Source of the DNA: Alphaproteobacteria bacterium
GTDB lineage: Bacteria > Planctomycetota > Phycisphaerae > UBA1845
DNA length: 64,000 bases
Reading direction: 5' to 3'
NCBI GenBank assembly: GCA_028285105.1
Contig: JANQQE010000027.1
Span: forward strand, 62,001-126,000
Positions 18,604-53,115 of the stretch are shown piece after piece. Position 1 is the stretch's first letter. Every line of letters begins with the position of its first letter. The position numbers were made by a program, and so were the translations under genes. The notes under the pieces are model-generated. The model made no database searches. It was given only the letters and a program-made list of their open reading frames with translations, and was not told the origin of the DNA.

Positions 18604-19751
18604 TCGTTGAAGCGTTTGGCCAATAGCTGATGTGTGATGGGCGTCGAAGCGAGAATGTTGGCGATGCGCGATGCACTGTTGCCGTCGCCATATGGATTCT
18701 TCAGTCCTCGAATTGAGCATGCGAATTCGGTGGATCGGGCTTGATCGATCGCTGCTCGAACAGCCGCAGACATAGACTCGGTATCGATGACGTTTGCCGC
18801 CCGTACCCGACCGGCTTGTCGTTTGCCGACATTGACCACGGGCGTCTTGAAACTCGGCGATTCGATGATTCCTGCCGAACTGTTGCCCACCATCACCGTC
18901 GCAGATTTCATCAATGTCAAAAAGGCATCGCGCGGAACCGAAGTAAACGCACGGGCTGATTTGTGCTGATTGCAAAAGCGATCAATTGCTTCGCGAATTC
19001 CTTGATGGCCGGTGTCGGCATTCGGGGCAACGATCGCGATATTTGTTGATTCGACTTCGAGTGAACCGACGGCGCGTAACAATTCATCCATCCCTCGATT
19101 CGGATCGATTGTTGCGCCGCGCGTTTCCGGGTGGTACACGACGAGAATGTTTGTCTGGCCACTGACGAAACCGTACTTGGCCTTAATATCAAGCGGTTCG
19201 AATGCAGCAATGTCATCGAGTCCGGGCGCTCCAACACAATGAACGTATTCACTCGGTTCGCCCATTTGAATGATGCGCTTGGCGTATTCAGTCGTCGAGG
19301 CCAAATGGATATGGCTCATCTTGGTGATGGCGTGGCGGATGCTGTCGTCGAACGCCCCTTCCGTCAGCTCGCCACCATGAATGTGTGCAATCGGAATTCC
19401 GAATGGCAGGGCGGCTATGACGGCTGGCAACATGTCGAACCGGTCGCCAAGCACGGTCAGTATGTCGGGGCGATGATTTGCGAAGTGCGCCGCGAATGCC
19501 GAAACGCCGCCGCCCATCGATTTTGCGATGTCACTTGGATCGTCGCCCGGTTCGAGATAGTCAAATTCGGCAGCGACATCGAATCCGTCGGCACGAATGT
19601 CGTTCACCGTTTTTCCAAATGCTTCGGACAAGTGCATGCCACCGGCGATGATGTCCAGCGCTATGTCGTCCCGATCGCGCAAGGCTCGCGCGATCGATCG
19701 CTGAATGCCCCATTCACTGCGCGAGGTCGTCACCATGGCGATGTGTCTCAC
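18507..19751 (-). CDS. neuC: UDP-N-acetylglucosamine 2-epimerase (hydrolysing), NeuC/LegG-like
   Basis: 'VTTSRSEWGI', 'LTVLGDRFDMLPAVIAA', 'IAHIHGGELTEGAFDDSIRHAITKMSHIHLAST'; GTG start after GGAGG, overlapping the neuAB stop. Confidence 0.88.
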   Translation of the reverse strand: MRHIAMVTTSRSEWGIQRSIARALRDRDDIALDIIAGGMHLSEAFGKTVNDIRADGFDVAAEFDYLEPGDDPSDIAKSMGGGVSAFAAHFANHRPDILTVLGDRFDMLPAVIAALPFGIPIAHIHGGELTEGAFDDSIRHAITKMSHIHLASTTEYAKRIIQMGEPSEYVHCVGAPGLDDIAAFEPLDIKAKYGFVSGQTNILVVYHPETRGATIDPNRGMDELLRAVGSLEVESTNIAIVAPNADTGHQGIREAIDRFCNQHKSARAFTSVPRDAFLTLMKSATVMVGNSSAGIIESPSFKTPVVNVGKRQAGRVRAANVIDTESMSAAVRAAIDQARSTEFACSIRGLKNPYGDGNSASRIANILASTPITHQLLAKRFNDQLICSPQSFANSTSTRTATSISSKHAHSFGE

Positions 19752-44966: not shown

Positions 44967-46697
44967 ATGGGACTCGTAACATCAGGACTAACCGCAGGAC
45001 GAAACGCACTGCTTACCTATCAGGGTGCGTTGCAGGTCGTCGGTAACAACGTCGCGAATGCTGGCAATGTGGATTACACGCGCCAGTCAGCAGATCTGTC
45101 AGCCGTTCATGGGTCGGCGATCGGTCCAGGACTTCGTCCGGGCGCGGGTGTCGCCATCACGGGTTTGCAACGCCATGTCGATGAGGCGCTTGACAATCGA
45201 CTCCGCGCATCGATTGGCGATTTGCAATCTGCAATTGCGCAACGGCAGGGCATCGGTCAGATCGAAGTTCACTTTAACGACTTGAACGGTACGGGAATCA
45301 GTTCGCAGATCACCGATTTCTTCAACAGCCTCAGTGACGTGCAGAACGCACCGGACGACCTGGCGATACGATCGGTGGCGATTGCGAACGGTGAAGCATT
45401 GGCCCGTACCCTTCGAACGACTCGAACCGACATCATTGAAACCTCGCTGGATCTGAATGATGAAATTCGCCGGGTGGTTACCGATGCCGATCGCGTGGCG
45501 GCAGAGATCGCCGAACTGAACACCGAAATCGTCTCCGTCGAAGCAGGCGGTACCGGAAAAGCCAACGCCCTTCGCGATCGACGCGACGCCTTGATTCGCG
45601 ACCTCAGCGAAGTATTCGATGTGCTTGTTCGCGAGCAGCCCAGCGGTGCCGTCAACGTTTACGTCGGAAGCGAACCGTTGATTCAACACGGCGCCTCGCG
45701 CGGGCTGACCACCGAAAATGAACTTGATGGCATGTTCGAGCGAACCACCGTTCGATTCGAAGACACCAATGCCACGATCAACGTTGCGGGCGGTGTCATC
45801 GAAGGCATCATGAAAGCCCGCGACGAACAGGCGCTCGCGCAAGTGGCCAAACTCGATCAACTTGCAGACGGTATCATTGCAGAAGTCAACGCAGTCCACG
45901 CCGACGGACAGGGGCTAGCAGCATTTACTTCGGTTGTGGCGAGCAACGTTGTCGATGACGTTTCTGCACCGCTCAACAGTCTCGAAGCCGGTCTGCAAAA
46001 TCTACCTGTCAATGGCAGCTTCTACATTTCAGTGACGGACCAAGCCACCAATTCGCCGGTGTCGTATCGCATCGAAGTGGACCTCGACGGTCAGGGAGTG
46101 GACACGACGTTGGAAGACATCGTGACTGCGATCAACACGGATGTGGCTGGCGTCAATGCGTCGATCACGCCCGACCATCGACTCAGTCTCAGTGCCGACT
46201 CAGGGTTTTCCTTCACGTTTGGCAATGATGGCGATTCGTTCCGAACAGACAGTTCAAAATTGCTGGCCGCCTTGGGCATCAACACATTCTTTGAGGGTTC
46301 TGGTGCGGACGACATTGCGGTACGCGAACAGCTACGCACTGATTCGAGTTTCCTGGCGGCAGCGACGGTCAACCATGTCGGTGATGGAAACAATGCCGGC
46401 CGTCTTGCCGGTCTGACCAATCAAGCCAGCGACGTTCTGAATGGTTCGACGATCTTCGAGTTTTACAACGGTATCGCCAATGGCGTTGCGGCTGATGGAA
46501 GGTCGGTGCAGGACACCTTGGAGGCGGCGGACGTCATTACGACGTCATTGGAAGAACAGCGTCAAAGCGTGAGCGGTGTCAGTCTCGATGAGGAAGCGAT
46601 TGGTTTGCTTAAGTACGAGCGGGCATTCCAAGGAGCCGCACGATACATCGGTACGGTGGATTCGCTGCTGCAAGAGTTGATCGGACTAATCACCTAA
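44967..46697 (+). CDS. flgK: Flagellar hook-associated protein 1
   Basis: 'LTYQGALQVVGNNVANAGNVDYTRQSADLS', C-terminal 'QSVSGVSLDEEAIGLLKYERAFQGAARYIGTVDSLLQELIGLI'. Confidence 0.95.
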   Translation: MGLVTSGLTAGRNALLTYQGALQVVGNNVANAGNVDYTRQSADLSAVHGSAIGPGLRPGAGVAITGLQRHVDEALDNRLRASIGDLQSAIAQRQGIGQIEVHFNDLNGTGISSQITDFFNSLSDVQNAPDDLAIRSVAIANGEALARTLRTTRTDIIETSLDLNDEIRRVVTDADRVAAEIAELNTEIVSVEAGGTGKANALRDRRDALIRDLSEVFDVLVREQPSGAVNVYVGSEPLIQHGASRGLTTENELDGMFERTTVRFEDTNATINVAGGVIEGIMKARDEQALAQVAKLDQLADGIIAEVNAVHADGQGLAAFTSVVASNVVDDVSAPLNSLEAGLQNLPVNGSFYISVTDQATNSPVSYRIEVDLDGQGVDTTLEDIVTAINTDVAGVNASITPDHRLSLSADSGFSFTFGNDGDSFRTDSSKLLAALGINTFFEGSGADDIAVREQLRTDSSFLAAATVNHVGDGNNAGRLAGLTNQASDVLNGSTIFEFYNGIANGVAADGRSVQDTLEAADVITTSLEEQRQSVSGVSLDEEAIGLLKYERAFQGAARYIGTVDSLLQELIGLIT

Positions 46698-46768: not shown

Positions 46769-48709
46769 ATGGCAATCAATTCAGTCAATCTAAGTCGCGT
46801 AACCACGACGCAGAAGACCGAAGCGTTGTTGTCATCGCTTCGCCGCAACACAGCCGAACTTTTCACCGGGCAGAATCGTCTCGCAACCGGACAGCGTTTC
46901 AGTACGCCGAGTGAATCGCCAGGTGAAGCTGCCCGCGTGTTGAATATGTCCGAGATTCTTGGCGAACAGTCGCAATTCATCACCAACATCCGACACGCAG
47001 CCAACACGCTGGACGCTACGGATGTTGCAATGGGTGAGGTCAGCGGTTTGATCATCGACGCCCAAGCCATTGCCAGCCAGAGTATCGGCACGCTGTCGAG
47101 TACGGCTGAACGTGAGGCGTCGGCTGAACTTATCGCATCGATTCGCGATCAACTCGTTGCGGTAGGAAATCGCACGTTTGAAGGTCGCTACCTCTTTGCA
47201 GGGCGCGATACCGATCGGCAGCCGTTTATCGAAACGATCGATGGTGTTCGGTATGTCGGAGACACCGGTGACATCTTCGCGCGGACCGATGTTGACGAAC
47301 TGACGCCAATCAACCTGCCTGGCAATGTCTTGTTTGGTGCGATTTCCAGCCAAGTGCTGGGGCGCGTCGATCTCAATCCGATCATTAGCGATGCCACTCG
47401 CCTGGAAGATCTGCAAGGCGCTCGTGAACTTGGGATTCGCAAGGGTTCGTTCCAGATTGTTGAGGATGGTGCGGCGGGTGTTGTCACTGTTGATATTACC
47501 GCAGCCGATACGGCTGGCGATGTCGTTCAACTCATTAACGATGCCGCGATTGAATCTGGCGCTGGTTTCACTGCAACGCTGACCAATAATGGAATCACGG
47601 TCACACCAGGCGCTACTCCGATTTCCATCCGCGACATCAGCACGGGCACGACGGCAGGCGATTTGGGGATTACGACACTTGCTCCAACCGGTGCGGCGAT
47701 TGTGGGTGTCGATCTTGGAACCAGACTCTCGCGCACGACACCGCTGACTGCGCTGTTGGACGGAGCGGGTCTGGATGTGTCGATGGGCCTGACCATGACC
47801 AACGGCGCGGATTCAGCGACGATCGATCTTTCGACGGCGACGTCCATTCAAGACGTACTCAATGCGATTAACAATTCCGGTCTCTCAGTCAATGCCAAGG
47901 TCAACGACGCCGGAACAGGCATCGACGTGGTCAATCTCAAATCGGGTTCAGAACTATCGATTGGCGAAAATGGCGGAATGGTTGCCAGCGCTCTCGGGAT
48001 ACGCTCACTTGATCTGGACATTCCTCTTTCAAGCTTGAACAACGGTCGAGGCGTACGCACGGTCGAGGGGGAAACGGATTTACTCATCACCGCCAAGAAC
48101 GGGAACTCGTTTGAGGTCAATCTCGACGGACTGACGACCATTGGCGAAGTGATCGACGCGATCAACCTGGCAGCTACGGGTGCAGGTGTGGGCGTGAGTG
48201 CGAATTTGGCGTCGGTTGGTAGTGGTATCGCATTAAACGATACGACTGGCGGGGCGGGTTTCCTGTCGGCTGGCCGGGCGAATCTTTCGTTTGCCATAGA
48301 CGACCTCGGACTGACTGGAATGGTTCAGGATCCCGAGACTCAACTGGTGGGTAACGACGTCGCGACAGCCCGTGCCAACGGTGTGCTGTCGGCGCTTTAC
48401 GATCTGGAACGCGCGTTGTTGGCTGACGATTCGCAATTGATCACCATTGCGGGAGAAGACATTGATCGCCATGTCGTCGATTTCAACAAATCGCGCGGTG
48501 TCGTCGGTGCGCGTGGCAAGTCGATGCGCGACCGTCAATCTCAAACCGAAAGCGCCGTCTTTGCGACCGAGCAATTGCTCAGTGAAGTCCGCGATCTCGA
48601 TTATTCAGAAGCAGTTACCCGGTTTCAGCAAGCACAAACGGCGCTACAAGCCAGCCTGCTGACCGGTTCGCAAGTGTTGAATACGTCACTTCTGGATTTC
48701 CTTCGATAG
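46769..48709 (+). CDS. flgL: Flagellar hook-associated protein 3 (FlgL), enlarged with flagellin_IN-like insertions
   Basis: N-terminal flagellin-like 'LFTGQNRLATGQRFSTPSESPGEAARVLNMS', C-terminal 'LDYSEAVTRFQQAQTALQASLLTGSQVLNTSLLDFLR'. Confidence 0.9.
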   Translation: MAINSVNLSRVTTTQKTEALLSSLRRNTAELFTGQNRLATGQRFSTPSESPGEAARVLNMSEILGEQSQFITNIRHAANTLDATDVAMGEVSGLIIDAQAIASQSIGTLSSTAEREASAELIASIRDQLVAVGNRTFEGRYLFAGRDTDRQPFIETIDGVRYVGDTGDIFARTDVDELTPINLPGNVLFGAISSQVLGRVDLNPIISDATRLEDLQGARELGIRKGSFQIVEDGAAGVVTVDITAADTAGDVVQLINDAAIESGAGFTATLTNNGITVTPGATPISIRDISTGTTAGDLGITTLAPTGAAIVGVDLGTRLSRTTPLTALLDGAGLDVSMGLTMTNGADSATIDLSTATSIQDVLNAINNSGLSVNAKVNDAGTGIDVVNLKSGSELSIGENGGMVASALGIRSLDLDIPLSSLNNGRGVRTVEGETDLLITAKNGNSFEVNLDGLTTIGEVIDAINLAATGAGVGVSANLASVGSGIALNDTTGGAGFLSAGRANLSFAIDDLGLTGMVQDPETQLVGNDVATARANGVLSALYDLERALLADDSQLITIAGEDIDRHVVDFNKSRGVVGARGKSMRDRQSQTESAVFATEQLLSEVRDLDYSEAVTRFQQAQTALQASLLTGSQVLNTSLLDFLR

Positions 48710-48882: not shown

Positions 48883-49335
48883 ATGACGATACAAACGTCG
48901 CGATTCGGACCGCTGGATGTTAACGAGGAGAGGTTCATCACATTTGAGCAGGGCATACTGGGTTTTCCGAATCAGAAACAGTACGCCTTGATTCAGACGG
49001 GAGACAATAGCGGGTTTTATTGGCTGCAAGCCGTCGACCGTGCAGAACTCGCGTTTGTCGTGTGCGATCCTCGGCTATTTGTGCAGGACTACCGTGCTCC
49101 GATCAAGTCGGAAGAGTTGGCCAATCTGGGGGTGACCGACCCGGATGACGCGCAGGTCTTCATCATTGTGAACAAGATCGACAAGGTGCTGACCGGGAAC
49201 TTGCAGGGACCATTGGTAATCAACGTCAAGACGCACGTGGCGCGACAATTGGTGTTGAGCGACCGCAAGTACTCGACGCGACATCCGTTGATGCGATTGC
49301 CAGAACCGCAACCGGCAATGGCCAAGACGGGTTAG
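48883..49335 (+). CDS. fliW: Flagellar assembly factor FliW
   Basis: 'RFGPLDVNEERFITFEQGILGFPNQKQYALIQ', 'FYWLQAVDRAELAFVVCDPRLF', 'LVINVKTHVARQLVLSDRKYSTRHPL'. Confidence 0.95.
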   Translation: MTIQTSRFGPLDVNEERFITFEQGILGFPNQKQYALIQTGDNSGFYWLQAVDRAELAFVVCDPRLFVQDYRAPIKSEELANLGVTDPDDAQVFIIVNKIDKVLTGNLQGPLVINVKTHVARQLVLSDRKYSTRHPLMRLPEPQPAMAKTG

Positions 49336-49772: not shown

Positions 49773-49811
49773 TTGGCACAAGCCCAAATCGAAAGGGCAT
49801 TAGAGTCAGGG

Positions 49812-49863
49812 GCTGGCCCGACAAGGATGAGAGGGTCAGCGTAATGCAATCAAGGAGGATTGC
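49812..49863 (+). promoter_or_regulatory. Candidate dual CsrA-binding leader of the flagellin gene
   Basis: GCTGGCCC[GACAAGGATGAGA]GGGTCAGC (49812-49840) and GCAATC[AAGGAG]GATTGC (49846-49863) sequestering the SD; ATG 49866. Confidence 0.7.
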
Positions 49864-49865
49864 TC

Positions 49866-51314
49866 ATGAGTCGTATCACAAACAACATACCCGCTATCGT
49901 TTCTCAGAGAGAACTGTCGCAGTCGCAGCGCTCGCTTAGTACGAGCTTGCAGCGTTTGTCGAGCGGTCTGCAAATCAACCGCGGTGCCGACAACCCTGCC
50001 GGGCTGATCGTATCCGAGCGGCTGCGTTCGGAAGTGGCCGCAGTCACCCAGGCGATCGACAACTCGCAGCGGGCCATCAACGTCATCGCCACGACGGAAG
50101 GTGCTCTCAACGAGGTTAACTCGATCCTGACCGACATCCAGGCGCTCGTCGTAGAAGCCGCCAACCGTGGAGCGTTCAGTGATGAAGAAGTCGACGCCAA
50201 CCAATTGCAGATCGATTCTGCGATTGAGTCGATCACGCGAATCGCCAATACGACTACGTTCGCCGGTCGAAAGCTGCTCGATGGTTCGCTCGACTATGTG
50301 ACGAGCGGCGTTGACACGGCGCAGTTGGCAGACGTTCAGGTGGAAGCAGCGAACTTCGGACGCGCAAGCTTCATTCCAGTTCAGGTTGACGTGACGGCAG
50401 CCGCCGAGAAAGCCACGCTAGAATTCCCCGGAGCAACCGTCGGTTCGGCAGACGTTGCTCTCGACGTTCAGGGTCCGAAGGGAATCGTCACGCTGAACTT
50501 CCCGGCAAGCGCACCGATGGATGCGATCGTCATCGCGATCAACAACCAGACCGACGCGACCGGCGTCACTGCAGAATTTGTAAACTCCGCGACGCAATCC
50601 GGAATTCGCTTCCTGAGCGAAGAGTATGGCAGCAAGCAATTTGTTTCCGTCAAGGCACTTGATACGGGTGGTCCATTCCCGGTGACGGACACATCCGGCG
50701 GAACGGTGACGCGAACCAACGGTGTAGACGCACAAGCCACTGTCAATGGGGCCGCAACGATCGCCGACGGACTCAACCTGTCGATGAATTCGCGATTGCT
50801 CAACGTCAAGATCGCGCTCGACGAAGGGCTCGGAACCCAGGCGACCGGCAGCAGTACGTCGTTCGCGATCACTGGCGGTGGTTCGCTCTTCCAGCTTGGA
50901 CCGCGCGTCAATACAAACCAGCAGTCGAACATCGGGGTGCCGGCGATGCAGGCGAACAAGTTGGGCAATCGCATCGACGGTTTCCTGTCGCAGCTCGGAA
51001 GCGGACAGGCATTCGCCCTTCGTACCGGAAACTTCGACCAGGCATCTGACATTGTTGATTCAGTCATCACGGAAGTGACAACCCTCCGTGGGCGATTGGG
51101 TGCATTCGAGCGAAACAACTTGCAACCGAACATCACGCAGTTGCAGATCACGGCTGAAAACCTGACTGCGTCGGAATCGATTATTCGCGATACCGACTTC
51201 GCTCAGGAAACCACCGAGTTGACGCGTTCGCAGATTCTGGTGCAAGCCGGTACATCCGTCCTGTCCATCGCCAACGCTCAACAGCAAAACGTATTGACGC
51301 TGCTTGGTGGATAG
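49866..51314 (+). CDS. Flagellin
   Basis: 'MSRITNNIPAIVSQRELSQSQRSLSTSLQRLSSGLQINRGADNPAGLIVSERLRSEVAAVTQAIDNSQRAINVIATTEGAL'; C-terminal 'QILVQAGTSVLSIANAQQQNVLTLLGG'. Confidence 0.97.
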   Translation: MSRITNNIPAIVSQRELSQSQRSLSTSLQRLSSGLQINRGADNPAGLIVSERLRSEVAAVTQAIDNSQRAINVIATTEGALNEVNSILTDIQALVVEAANRGAFSDEEVDANQLQIDSAIESITRIANTTTFAGRKLLDGSLDYVTSGVDTAQLADVQVEAANFGRASFIPVQVDVTAAAEKATLEFPGATVGSADVALDVQGPKGIVTLNFPASAPMDAIVIAINNQTDATGVTAEFVNSATQSGIRFLSEEYGSKQFVSVKALDTGGPFPVTDTSGGTVTRTNGVDAQATVNGAATIADGLNLSMNSRLLNVKIALDEGLGTQATGSSTSFAITGGGSLFQLGPRVNTNQQSNIGVPAMQANKLGNRIDGFLSQLGSGQAFALRTGNFDQASDIVDSVITEVTTLRGRLGAFERNNLQPNITQLQITAENLTASESIIRDTDFAQETTELTRSQILVQAGTSVLSIANAQQQNVLTLLGG

Positions 51315-51411: not shown

Positions 51412-53115
51412 TTAGCGAGCGGTGGGGTGGGTTTTGTCCAGATCCGTCGCACCGGAGCGCATCACCGAAAGGCGAACCTCGAATCGCGTGCCTTTGTCTT
51501 TCGCCGTCTTGATGCGGATTTCGCCTTGCAATTCGTCCACGATTTTTTTTGCAGCAGCCAACCCAAGTCCCGTTCCACCTTGACCCTTGGATGAGTTGAA
51601 CGGTTCAAACACACCCTTGAGGTCGTCAGAGTCGATGCCCGGTCCGTTGTCGGTGATTCGTATCGAGACCATGTTGGCGTCGGTGTCGTATCGGGTCTTG
51701 ACCAATACACGTCCCGTTTCGGTGGGGCACGCGTCGGTGGCGTTGAGGATGAGATTGAACACAACCTGATGAATTCCTTCAACATCGGTCGGGATCGCCG
51801 GGACATCGTCGAGGTCGGCAAGCAGCATCACGCCTCGTTCTTCGGCATGGCGCTTGGCCAGATCGACAGCGTCTTCAATAACGTTGTTGATTTGTGCCAA
51901 TTCGATCTTCGGGAGACGGTCTTTGCTGAACGTCAACATGTTGGTCGTCAGGTTGAACACGCGATCGAGATTGTGTTCGACTATGCGCCAACCCGTACGA
52001 ATCTTATCCGAATCGTCGCGGTTCAGACCCATGTCCACAATGTCCGCACCGCTTCGAAGACCTTGCAACAAATTGCGAATGTGATGCGACAGATACGCAA
52101 CTGTTTCCCCCGTTGCTGCCAACCGGGCGTTGCGCATTCGCGCTTCGGTCAAACGCTGATTTTCGATCGCCAATCCGCAAACGCGACCGATGGCGGTTGC
52201 CAACCGAAGATGGTCCTGACTGTAGGTGTGCCGTCCCATCGGACAATCGATGTGGATGACGCCGATGACTTCGTCGTGACCGGTCAGTGGTACGCAGATC
52301 ACGCTGCGAAGCGCCAGGCTTTCGAGGCTGGCTGTGTTTGGGTCGGTGACGAATCGTTCGTCAGCGTTGGCATTGGCACAGAGGACACCCGCTTTGGTGT
52401 CGATGACTTGCTGGATGATTGCACTGGACGTTTTGATTTGCTCGTGCGTGCGTCCAGCTTTTGATCGATACCGGACGACGGCAGGCTCCAATTCGGCGCC
52501 GGCACGCTTGCGGATGAGAATGAACAACCGGTCGACGATCAGGCTGCGGAGAATGATATCGGTGATGCGATCCAAAAACTCGCGCTCGGACGCAATCACG
52601 CCAGCCGCTTCCGCCAGTTGATACATCACGTTCCAGGAACGAACCGCAGCCGCATTTTCCGGAGCAGCAACGATAACGCTCTCTTCGCTTGACTGAATCG
52701 CTGAAAGCAGGGATGAGTCTCCGGCATCGTCGCCTCCGCTGAATTGAACCATGTTTTCGGTTGTTTGCGGTTCGCCGAAACCCTGAACGCCCAATTGTCC
52801 GCGAAACGCCAGAAGCGTACCGCCGATTTTGATCTGGTCGCCATGATGAAGTTGCGTCGCTTCGGATATTCGTTCACCGTTGACGTAGGTACCGTTTGAG
52901 CTGCCGAGATGGGTGATCGTCCATTCGTCGCCGTTGCACATCAGTTCGGCGTGGCGGCGCGATACGGTATAATCGGTGAGTGGGGCCTGCTCTGAGTGGC
53001 GACCCAGAAGCACAGACGAATGGGTGAGTTCGATGGCCTGACCTGCATCGGGCCCTTGAAGTACATAGAGTGTTGCCACGTTTCGGTTCTCGTAGCTCTC
53101 TGAAGCGCAATGCAC
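51412..53115 (-). CDS. Sensor histidine kinase with N-terminal FHA and GAF domains
   Basis: FHA 'VLLGRHSEQAPLTDYTVSRRHAELMCNGDEWTITHLGSSNGTYVNGERI'; GAF region; H-box-like 'YLSHHIRNLLQGL'; HATPase 'RITDNGPGIDSDDL...GGTGLGLAAAKKI'. Confidence 0.85.
   Translation of the reverse strand: MHCASESYENRNVATLYVLQGPDAGQAIELTHSSVLLGRHSEQAPLTDYTVSRRHAELMCNGDEWTITHLGSSNGTYVNGERISEATQLHHGDQIKIGGTLLAFRGQLGVQGFGEPQTTENMVQFSGGDDAGDSSLLSAIQSSEESVIVAAPENAAAVRSWNVMYQLAEAAGVIASEREFLDRITDIILRSLIVDRLFILIRKRAGAELEPAVVRYRSKAGRTHEQIKTSSAIIQQVIDTKAGVLCANANADERFVTDPNTASLESLALRSVICVPLTGHDEVIGVIHIDCPMGRHTYSQDHLRLATAIGRVCGLAIENQRLTEARMRNARLAATGETVAYLSHHIRNLLQGLRSGADIVDMGLNRDDSDKIRTGWRIVEHNLDRVFNLTTNMLTFSKDRLPKIELAQINNVIEDAVDLAKRHAEERGVMLLADLDDVPAIPTDVEGIHQVVFNLILNATDACPTETGRVLVKTRYDTDANMVSIRITDNGPGIDSDDLKGVFEPFNSSKGQGGTGLGLAAAKKIVDELQGEIRIKTAKDKGTRFEVRLSVMRSGATDLDKTHPTAR

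Follow-up and report, generated by a model that had tools for sequence, protein, structure and literature searches.

The leader of a flagellin gene in the planctomycete (Phycisphaerae) genome studied here is in all likelihood a translational brake of the CsrA/FliW type. The window, a stretch of 64,000 nucleotides, is part of contig C32 of this 4.8 Mb genome and contains two hairpins, HP1 and HP2, between csrA and the flagellin gene (Table 1). The evidence consists of the two hairpins and how they are conserved and covary, the order of the genes, and the encoding of CsrA and FliW with key residues intact. From it we infer a mechanism in which a CsrA dimer would bind the ANGGA-containing loop of HP2, itself the Shine-Dalgarno (SD) sequence, and also the loop of HP1 where that hairpin is present, one dimer thus bridging the two sites. 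HP1 would act as a helper site, its GGA (49825-49827) lying 26 nt upstream of the HP2 GGA (49854-49856). With CsrA on the SD, ribosomes would be unable to start flagellin synthesis. FliW, encoded two genes upstream, would bind CsrA during flagellin export and relieve the repression, and cytoplasmic flagellin would take up FliW and restore it.

Table 1. Features of the flagellin locus and of related leaders in the same genome (window positions unless a contig is given).
Feature	Position	Strand	Evidence
flgK, hook-associated protein, neighbor gene	44967..46697	+	FlgK_D1 166.8 bits
Flagellin-like hook-associated protein, FlgL type, same flagellar cluster	46769..48709	+	Flagellin_N 44.6 bits
fliW, 150 aa, family of CsrA antagonists	48883..49335	+	Pfam FliW 127.3 bits
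csrA, 79 aa	49533..49772	+	Pfam 87 bits
HP1, 8-bp stem with one G-U, GCTGGCCC / GGGTCAGC, 13-nt loop GACAAGGATGAGA, putative second CsrA site	49812..49840	+	folding, congeners
ACAAGGATG in HP1 loop, core of CsrA SELEX consensus	49821..49829	+	consensus from PMC7652899
HP2, perfect 6-bp stem, GCAATC-AAGGAG-GATTGC, hexaloop = SD, putative CsrA site blocking the ribosome	49846..49863	+	sequence, folding, covariation, model R1
CAAGGAGG, fits CsrA motif CANGGANG, overlaps SD GGAGG (49854-49858)	49851..49858	+	sequence
Flagellin gene, ATG start, 482 aa, presumed regulated gene	49866..51314	+	Flagellin_N 111.5 bits, Flagellin_C 71.9 bits
ANGGYN hairpin L003 of flagellin paralog C35:81034, own genome	G000 C35:81498-81519	-	covariation with paralog leaders L211-L283
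SD hairpin of bactofilin-like gene, L180	G000 C35:46426-46450	-	sequence

The initial annotation had placed fliW and csrA directly 5' of flagellin, and Pfam searches bore out both genes. A gene with FHA, GAF and histidine-kinase domains lies on the minus strand at 51412-53115, convergent with flagellin. For comparison we drew leaders from the fliW-csrA-flagellin regions of relatives and from 79 further flagellin loci (the second collection). The genomes compared are mostly metagenome bins, and those named relatives whose flagellin N termini are 92-99% identical are bins assigned to Phycisphaerae or Planctomycetota. Of 100 related genomes, 96 have FliW. The first 30 regions inspected all have csrA 3' of fliW, nearly every one with flagellin next, and in the second collection csrA is upstream of most flagellins.

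Both proteins resemble structurally characterized partners. Among solved structures the window CsrA is closest to CsrA in the FliW-CsrA complex 5DMB, and the window FliW matches 2AJ7 and the FliW chain of 5DMB. The window CsrA carries L4, R6, R44, E46 and N55, which include the RNA-binding residues L4, R6 and R44. All 122 distinct CsrA sequences examined have R44, E46 and N55; residues 4 and 6 were in part built into the search pattern. In B. subtilis, N55D CsrA is deficient in FliW binding (PMC6529632), and judged from the sequence the present genome both encodes FliW and keeps this FliW-binding residue. A second CsrA, encoded away from fliW (L001, G000 C32:30311-30466), keeps R44 and N55; it occurs in 5/5 genomes of the genus and is absent from many relatives.

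HP2 had been described as a perfect 6-bp stem whose hexaloop holds the SD just before the ATG at 49866, and its coordinates are correct to the base, with 49846-49851 pairing with 49858-49863. Its loop thus places ANGGA over the SD of the flagellin mRNA, 7 nt 5' of the start codon. Folded alone, HP2 reaches -7.1 kcal/mol (z=-2.6), with 6 of 200 dinucleotide shuffles as good, and the segment spanning both hairpins (49805-49871) gives z=-2.9 (2/200). The check proposed in the initial annotation, folding of the 128-nt leader span against dinucleotide shuffles, turned out unremarkable (z=-1.36, 22/200 as good), so that folding energy alone is insufficient and the case rests on comparison. An Rfam search returned no family matching the leader.

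Nearly all of the 89 leaders compiled from the order, among them two paralogs of the genome itself, have the motif TCANGGAGGA 5' of the ATG. Across this set the columns C, GG, A and G never vary, the A preceding N is found in 86/89, and N is free (A45 G24 C11 T9). Because the loop N is free while the flanking A and GGA are kept, CsrA fits better than SD pairing alone. The stem is conserved as a structure as well: among 91 distinct sequences 83.7% of cells are paired, 39 cells are double-changed compared with 14.5 +/- 3.1 in shuffles, and the covariation score is 0.243 compared with 0.045-0.103 for slid partners. When partners are slid by +2 or +3 the raw number of double-changed cells is no lower, but the percentage paired and the covariation score are. 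Mapped on the flagellin tree, HP2 shows about 15 pairing-preserving double changes as against 3-9 with slid partners. Compensatory arms include AGTC/GACT (L033, L065, L078), ACAAC/GTTGT (L035) and CATC/GATG (L003), and the secondary structure is thereby preserved in relatives. This comparative evidence strongly supports the reading of HP2 as a putative CsrA site. In several families (L009, L011, L031, L032, L037, L048, L059 and others) HP2 is nested in an outer stem AGCCA...UGGCU, which pairs across the start codon (AUGGCU), so that AUG and SD would both be sequestered.

The 8-bp stem of HP1 with its one G-U pair, and the SELEX-consensus core reported in its loop, were likewise found exactly as described, 49812-49819 pairing with 49833-49840 around the loop 49820-49832. 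This loop agrees with RUACARGGAUGU at 9 of 12 positions, the ACAAGGAUG core being exact. HP1 is identical in 4 of 5 congeners and therefore uninformative there. A chance hairpin with a chance SELEX-like core, next to a genuine CsrA site in HP2, is an unlikely explanation of HP1 but the one that deserves most consideration, and it is compatible with the main mechanism at HP2. HP1 is without conservation across families, its loop has 13 nt where 6 are preferred, and in the one divergent congener (L029) the A-N-GGA spacing is lost to a shifted ACA-GGA; the same congener nevertheless retains the stem, in which one C-G pair has become U-A by compensatory change. Chance also sits poorly with the folding of HP1 alone (-15.3 kcal/mol, z=-3.9), which none of 200 dinucleotide shuffles equaled, with the exact 9-nt consensus core in the loop and with the recurrence of upstream ANGGA hairpins in unrelated leaders. 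Among 104 nonredundant leaders of the class, ANGGA in short upstream hairpin loops was observed 15.2 times compared with 1.3 +/- 0.7 expected from shuffles, and GGA ranks first of the 64 triplets behind 'AN' in such loops. Clear cases are GTGGAC-AAGGAT-GTCTAC (L140, L144), GTGGAC-ATGGAC-GTCTAC (L142), TTTTGGC-ATGGAC-GCCAAAA (L150) and CGCGGCG-AATGGATA-CGCCGCG (L038). Prediction finds no upstream ANGGA hairpin in most relatives, and where one occurs its position varies. By these leader comparisons the group has a real tendency toward a predicted second upstream site, which is acquired and lost and is no fixed element. The conservation and covariation in relatives on which the initial annotation had staked its reading thus hold for HP2 and extend to HP1 as a tendency only, which leaves HP1 as a putative second CsrA site less secure than HP2.

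An SD within a hairpin can act without any protein, and HP2 might accordingly be an RNA thermometer or a simple translation damper in which CsrA is uninvolved. We regard this as very improbable, since the HP2 loop matches CANGGANG with free positions that are exactly those CsrA tolerates, a thermometer has no need of a fixed A-N-GGA loop, a second ANGGA loop is enriched upstream, and csrA and fliW are almost always adjacent.

The HP2 hairpin was followed beyond the order with a covariance model, termed R1. In the genome itself R1 returned the window leader as its best match (E=6e-4) and a flagellin paralog as its second; as the two belong to the training set, what counts here is that no better rivals appeared. 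Among 150 genomes of the class, 45 had a match at E<=0.02. Of 18 matches inspected in families outside the order, 17 lie directly 5' of the start codon of a flagellin gene that has csrA upstream, often in the form GACAATC-AAGGAG-GATTGTC set right against the ATG; a minority may come from the same species as training loci (L346 and L347 are seemingly identical to L125 and L131), so these matches are not all independent.

Three more flagellins are encoded in the genome besides that of the window, and we collected 60 paralog leaders from relatives, some with starts picked by rule. These leaders form two groups, one with the SD in a C-[ANGGAN]-G hairpin and the other without such a hairpin. In the paralog SD hairpins the sixth loop base is also free (AAGGAC, AAGGAT, AAGGAA), and ANGGAN is therefore kept at the expense of SD pairing. 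That HP2 is kept solely as a strong SD, with a stem that is incidental or fixed by descent, is the least credible reading of all: GGAGG is an optimal ribosome-binding sequence, selection for the SD by itself accounts for part of the HP2 sequence conservation and the same AATC/GATT arms recur across much of the order, but the compensatory changes go beyond the slid controls, the base just 5' of GGA is free though SD pairing favors A there while the A preceding it is kept, and paralogs accept a weaker SD by varying the base after GGA.

Among paralogs unlinked to csrA, one of them in this genome, there is an extra perfect hairpin, RC-[ANGGYN]-GY, with its 3' end 41-57 nt upstream of the ATG. Of 29 leaders with an SD hairpin, 22 have it, as opposed to 1 of 47 without (Fisher 4e-12, uncorrected for leader relatedness), and its loops are AAGGTG, ACGGTG, AAGGTC, AAGGCT, ACGGCT, AGGGCA and ATGGCT. 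ANGGC hexaloops were found in 9/71 and ANGGT hexaloops in 8/71 nonredundant leaders compared with 0.12 and 0.07 in shuffles, or 17/71 for ANGGYN hairpins with about 0.2 expected. The seven-pair stem has a covariation score of 0.822 compared with 0.054-0.219 for slid partners, and the covariation includes three outer pairs that lie outside the selection criteria for the paralog set. The ANGGYN element is statistically real. Its closing pair is C-G and the next pair mostly R-Y, which is the AC...GU frame of the CsrA consensus. The GGA itself is missing from the loop, with GGC or GGU in its place in 22 paralog leaders, while GGA is found in every ligand selected with E. coli and C. jejuni CsrA (PMC7652899, PMC6692469). 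As the A of GGA is a pyrimidine, C or U, relative to the SELEX consensus, we term this hairpin CsrA-site-like and not a CsrA site.

We give about even chances to the view that flagellin leaders in Phycisphaerae employ loops of two types, one being ANGGAN at the SD and the other an upstream ANGGYN, in flagellins unlinked to csrA, that would be CsrA-like with an altered base choice or would serve another partner. The second CsrA was considered as the reader of ANGGYN: many genomes with the hairpin have only the fliW-linked CsrA (G007, G011, G054, G057, G060, G061 and G064), so the second CsrA is not required. A DNA operator was also considered; the arms differ among species and covary while the loop is kept, and an RNA hairpin therefore fits better. 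Other matches of the R2 model in the genome lie within reading frames or off gene starts and look like chance. In the window, the plus strand at 19673-19695 weakly matches the ANGGYN hairpin model (E=0.013) and may be chance as well.

Further leaders carry related features. In the second flagellin of a tandem pair (L005 on C35 and its congeners L242 and L246) a hairpin with a CAAGGT loop lies just 5' of the SD, and its arms covary within the genus around the constant loop (ggtcatcg/cggtgacc, ggtctccg/cggaggcc, ggtcaccg/cggtggcc). A third paralog class (L254, L269, L274, L278, L284, L286 and others), often with MTRINTNVQSLI..., has TTGGAGGCACGA or TTGGAGGCATGA conserved around the SD. The SD hairpin is absent from this class, which apparently is unbraked or differently controlled. 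Outside the flagellins, the SD of a bactofilin-like gene lies within CAAAC-AAGGAG-GTTTG in two congeneric genomes (L180, L208), and the gene is a possible further CsrA target. A 255-aa gene and a 361-aa gene (L183, L202, L207; L191, L192) have ANGGAG-loop SD hairpins in at least two congeners, with a loop N that differs among congeners in the latter (AAGGAG, ATGGAG).

The dual-site layout had been likened to that of B. subtilis hag, and it indeed matches both hag (PMC7652899) and C. jejuni flaA (PMC4894983). In B. subtilis there are likewise two CsrA sites, one over the SD, with FliW as antagonist and fliW and csrA adjacent (PMC7652899, PMC6529632); the planctomycete belongs to another phylum and has several flagellin paralogs with different leader types. 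The flaA leader of C. jejuni, a species that also has FliW, contains two ANGGA stem-loops, SL1 and SL2, the second over the ribosome-binding site; CsrA binding is proven for both, and relatives show compensatory changes (PMC4894983). Binding, footprint and mutants back that case, whereas sequence comparison backs that of the planctomycete leader, which differs further in its adjacent fliW, csrA and flagellin genes and in the 13-nt loop of HP1. Compared with the hairpins selected by CsrA in SELEX, RUACARGGAUGU and mAwGGAs (PMC7652899, PMC6692469), HP1 shares the ACAAGGAUG core and HP2 the hexaloop ANGGAG closed by C-G.

A 2015 survey relied on gene presence to propose that FliW may control CsrA in Planctomycetes (PMC4682653), and in the open-access literature searched we found no published study of a flagellin leader in this phylum. 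The leader is thus very probably a new case of the known CsrA/FliW control of flagellin leaders, in a phylum for which we found no published one. Such an extension to Planctomycetota, reached through covariation instead of resemblance, would fit the suggestion that flagellin control is the older job of CsrA (PMC4894983). R1 provides a ready RNA model for Phycisphaerae flagellin leaders, and the leader comparison sorts paralogs into apparently braked and unbraked classes. The ANGGYN hairpin offers a test of how strict the GGA requirement of CsrA is, and if Phycisphaerae leaders do employ both loop types, each flagellin in a cell with several would get its own brake.
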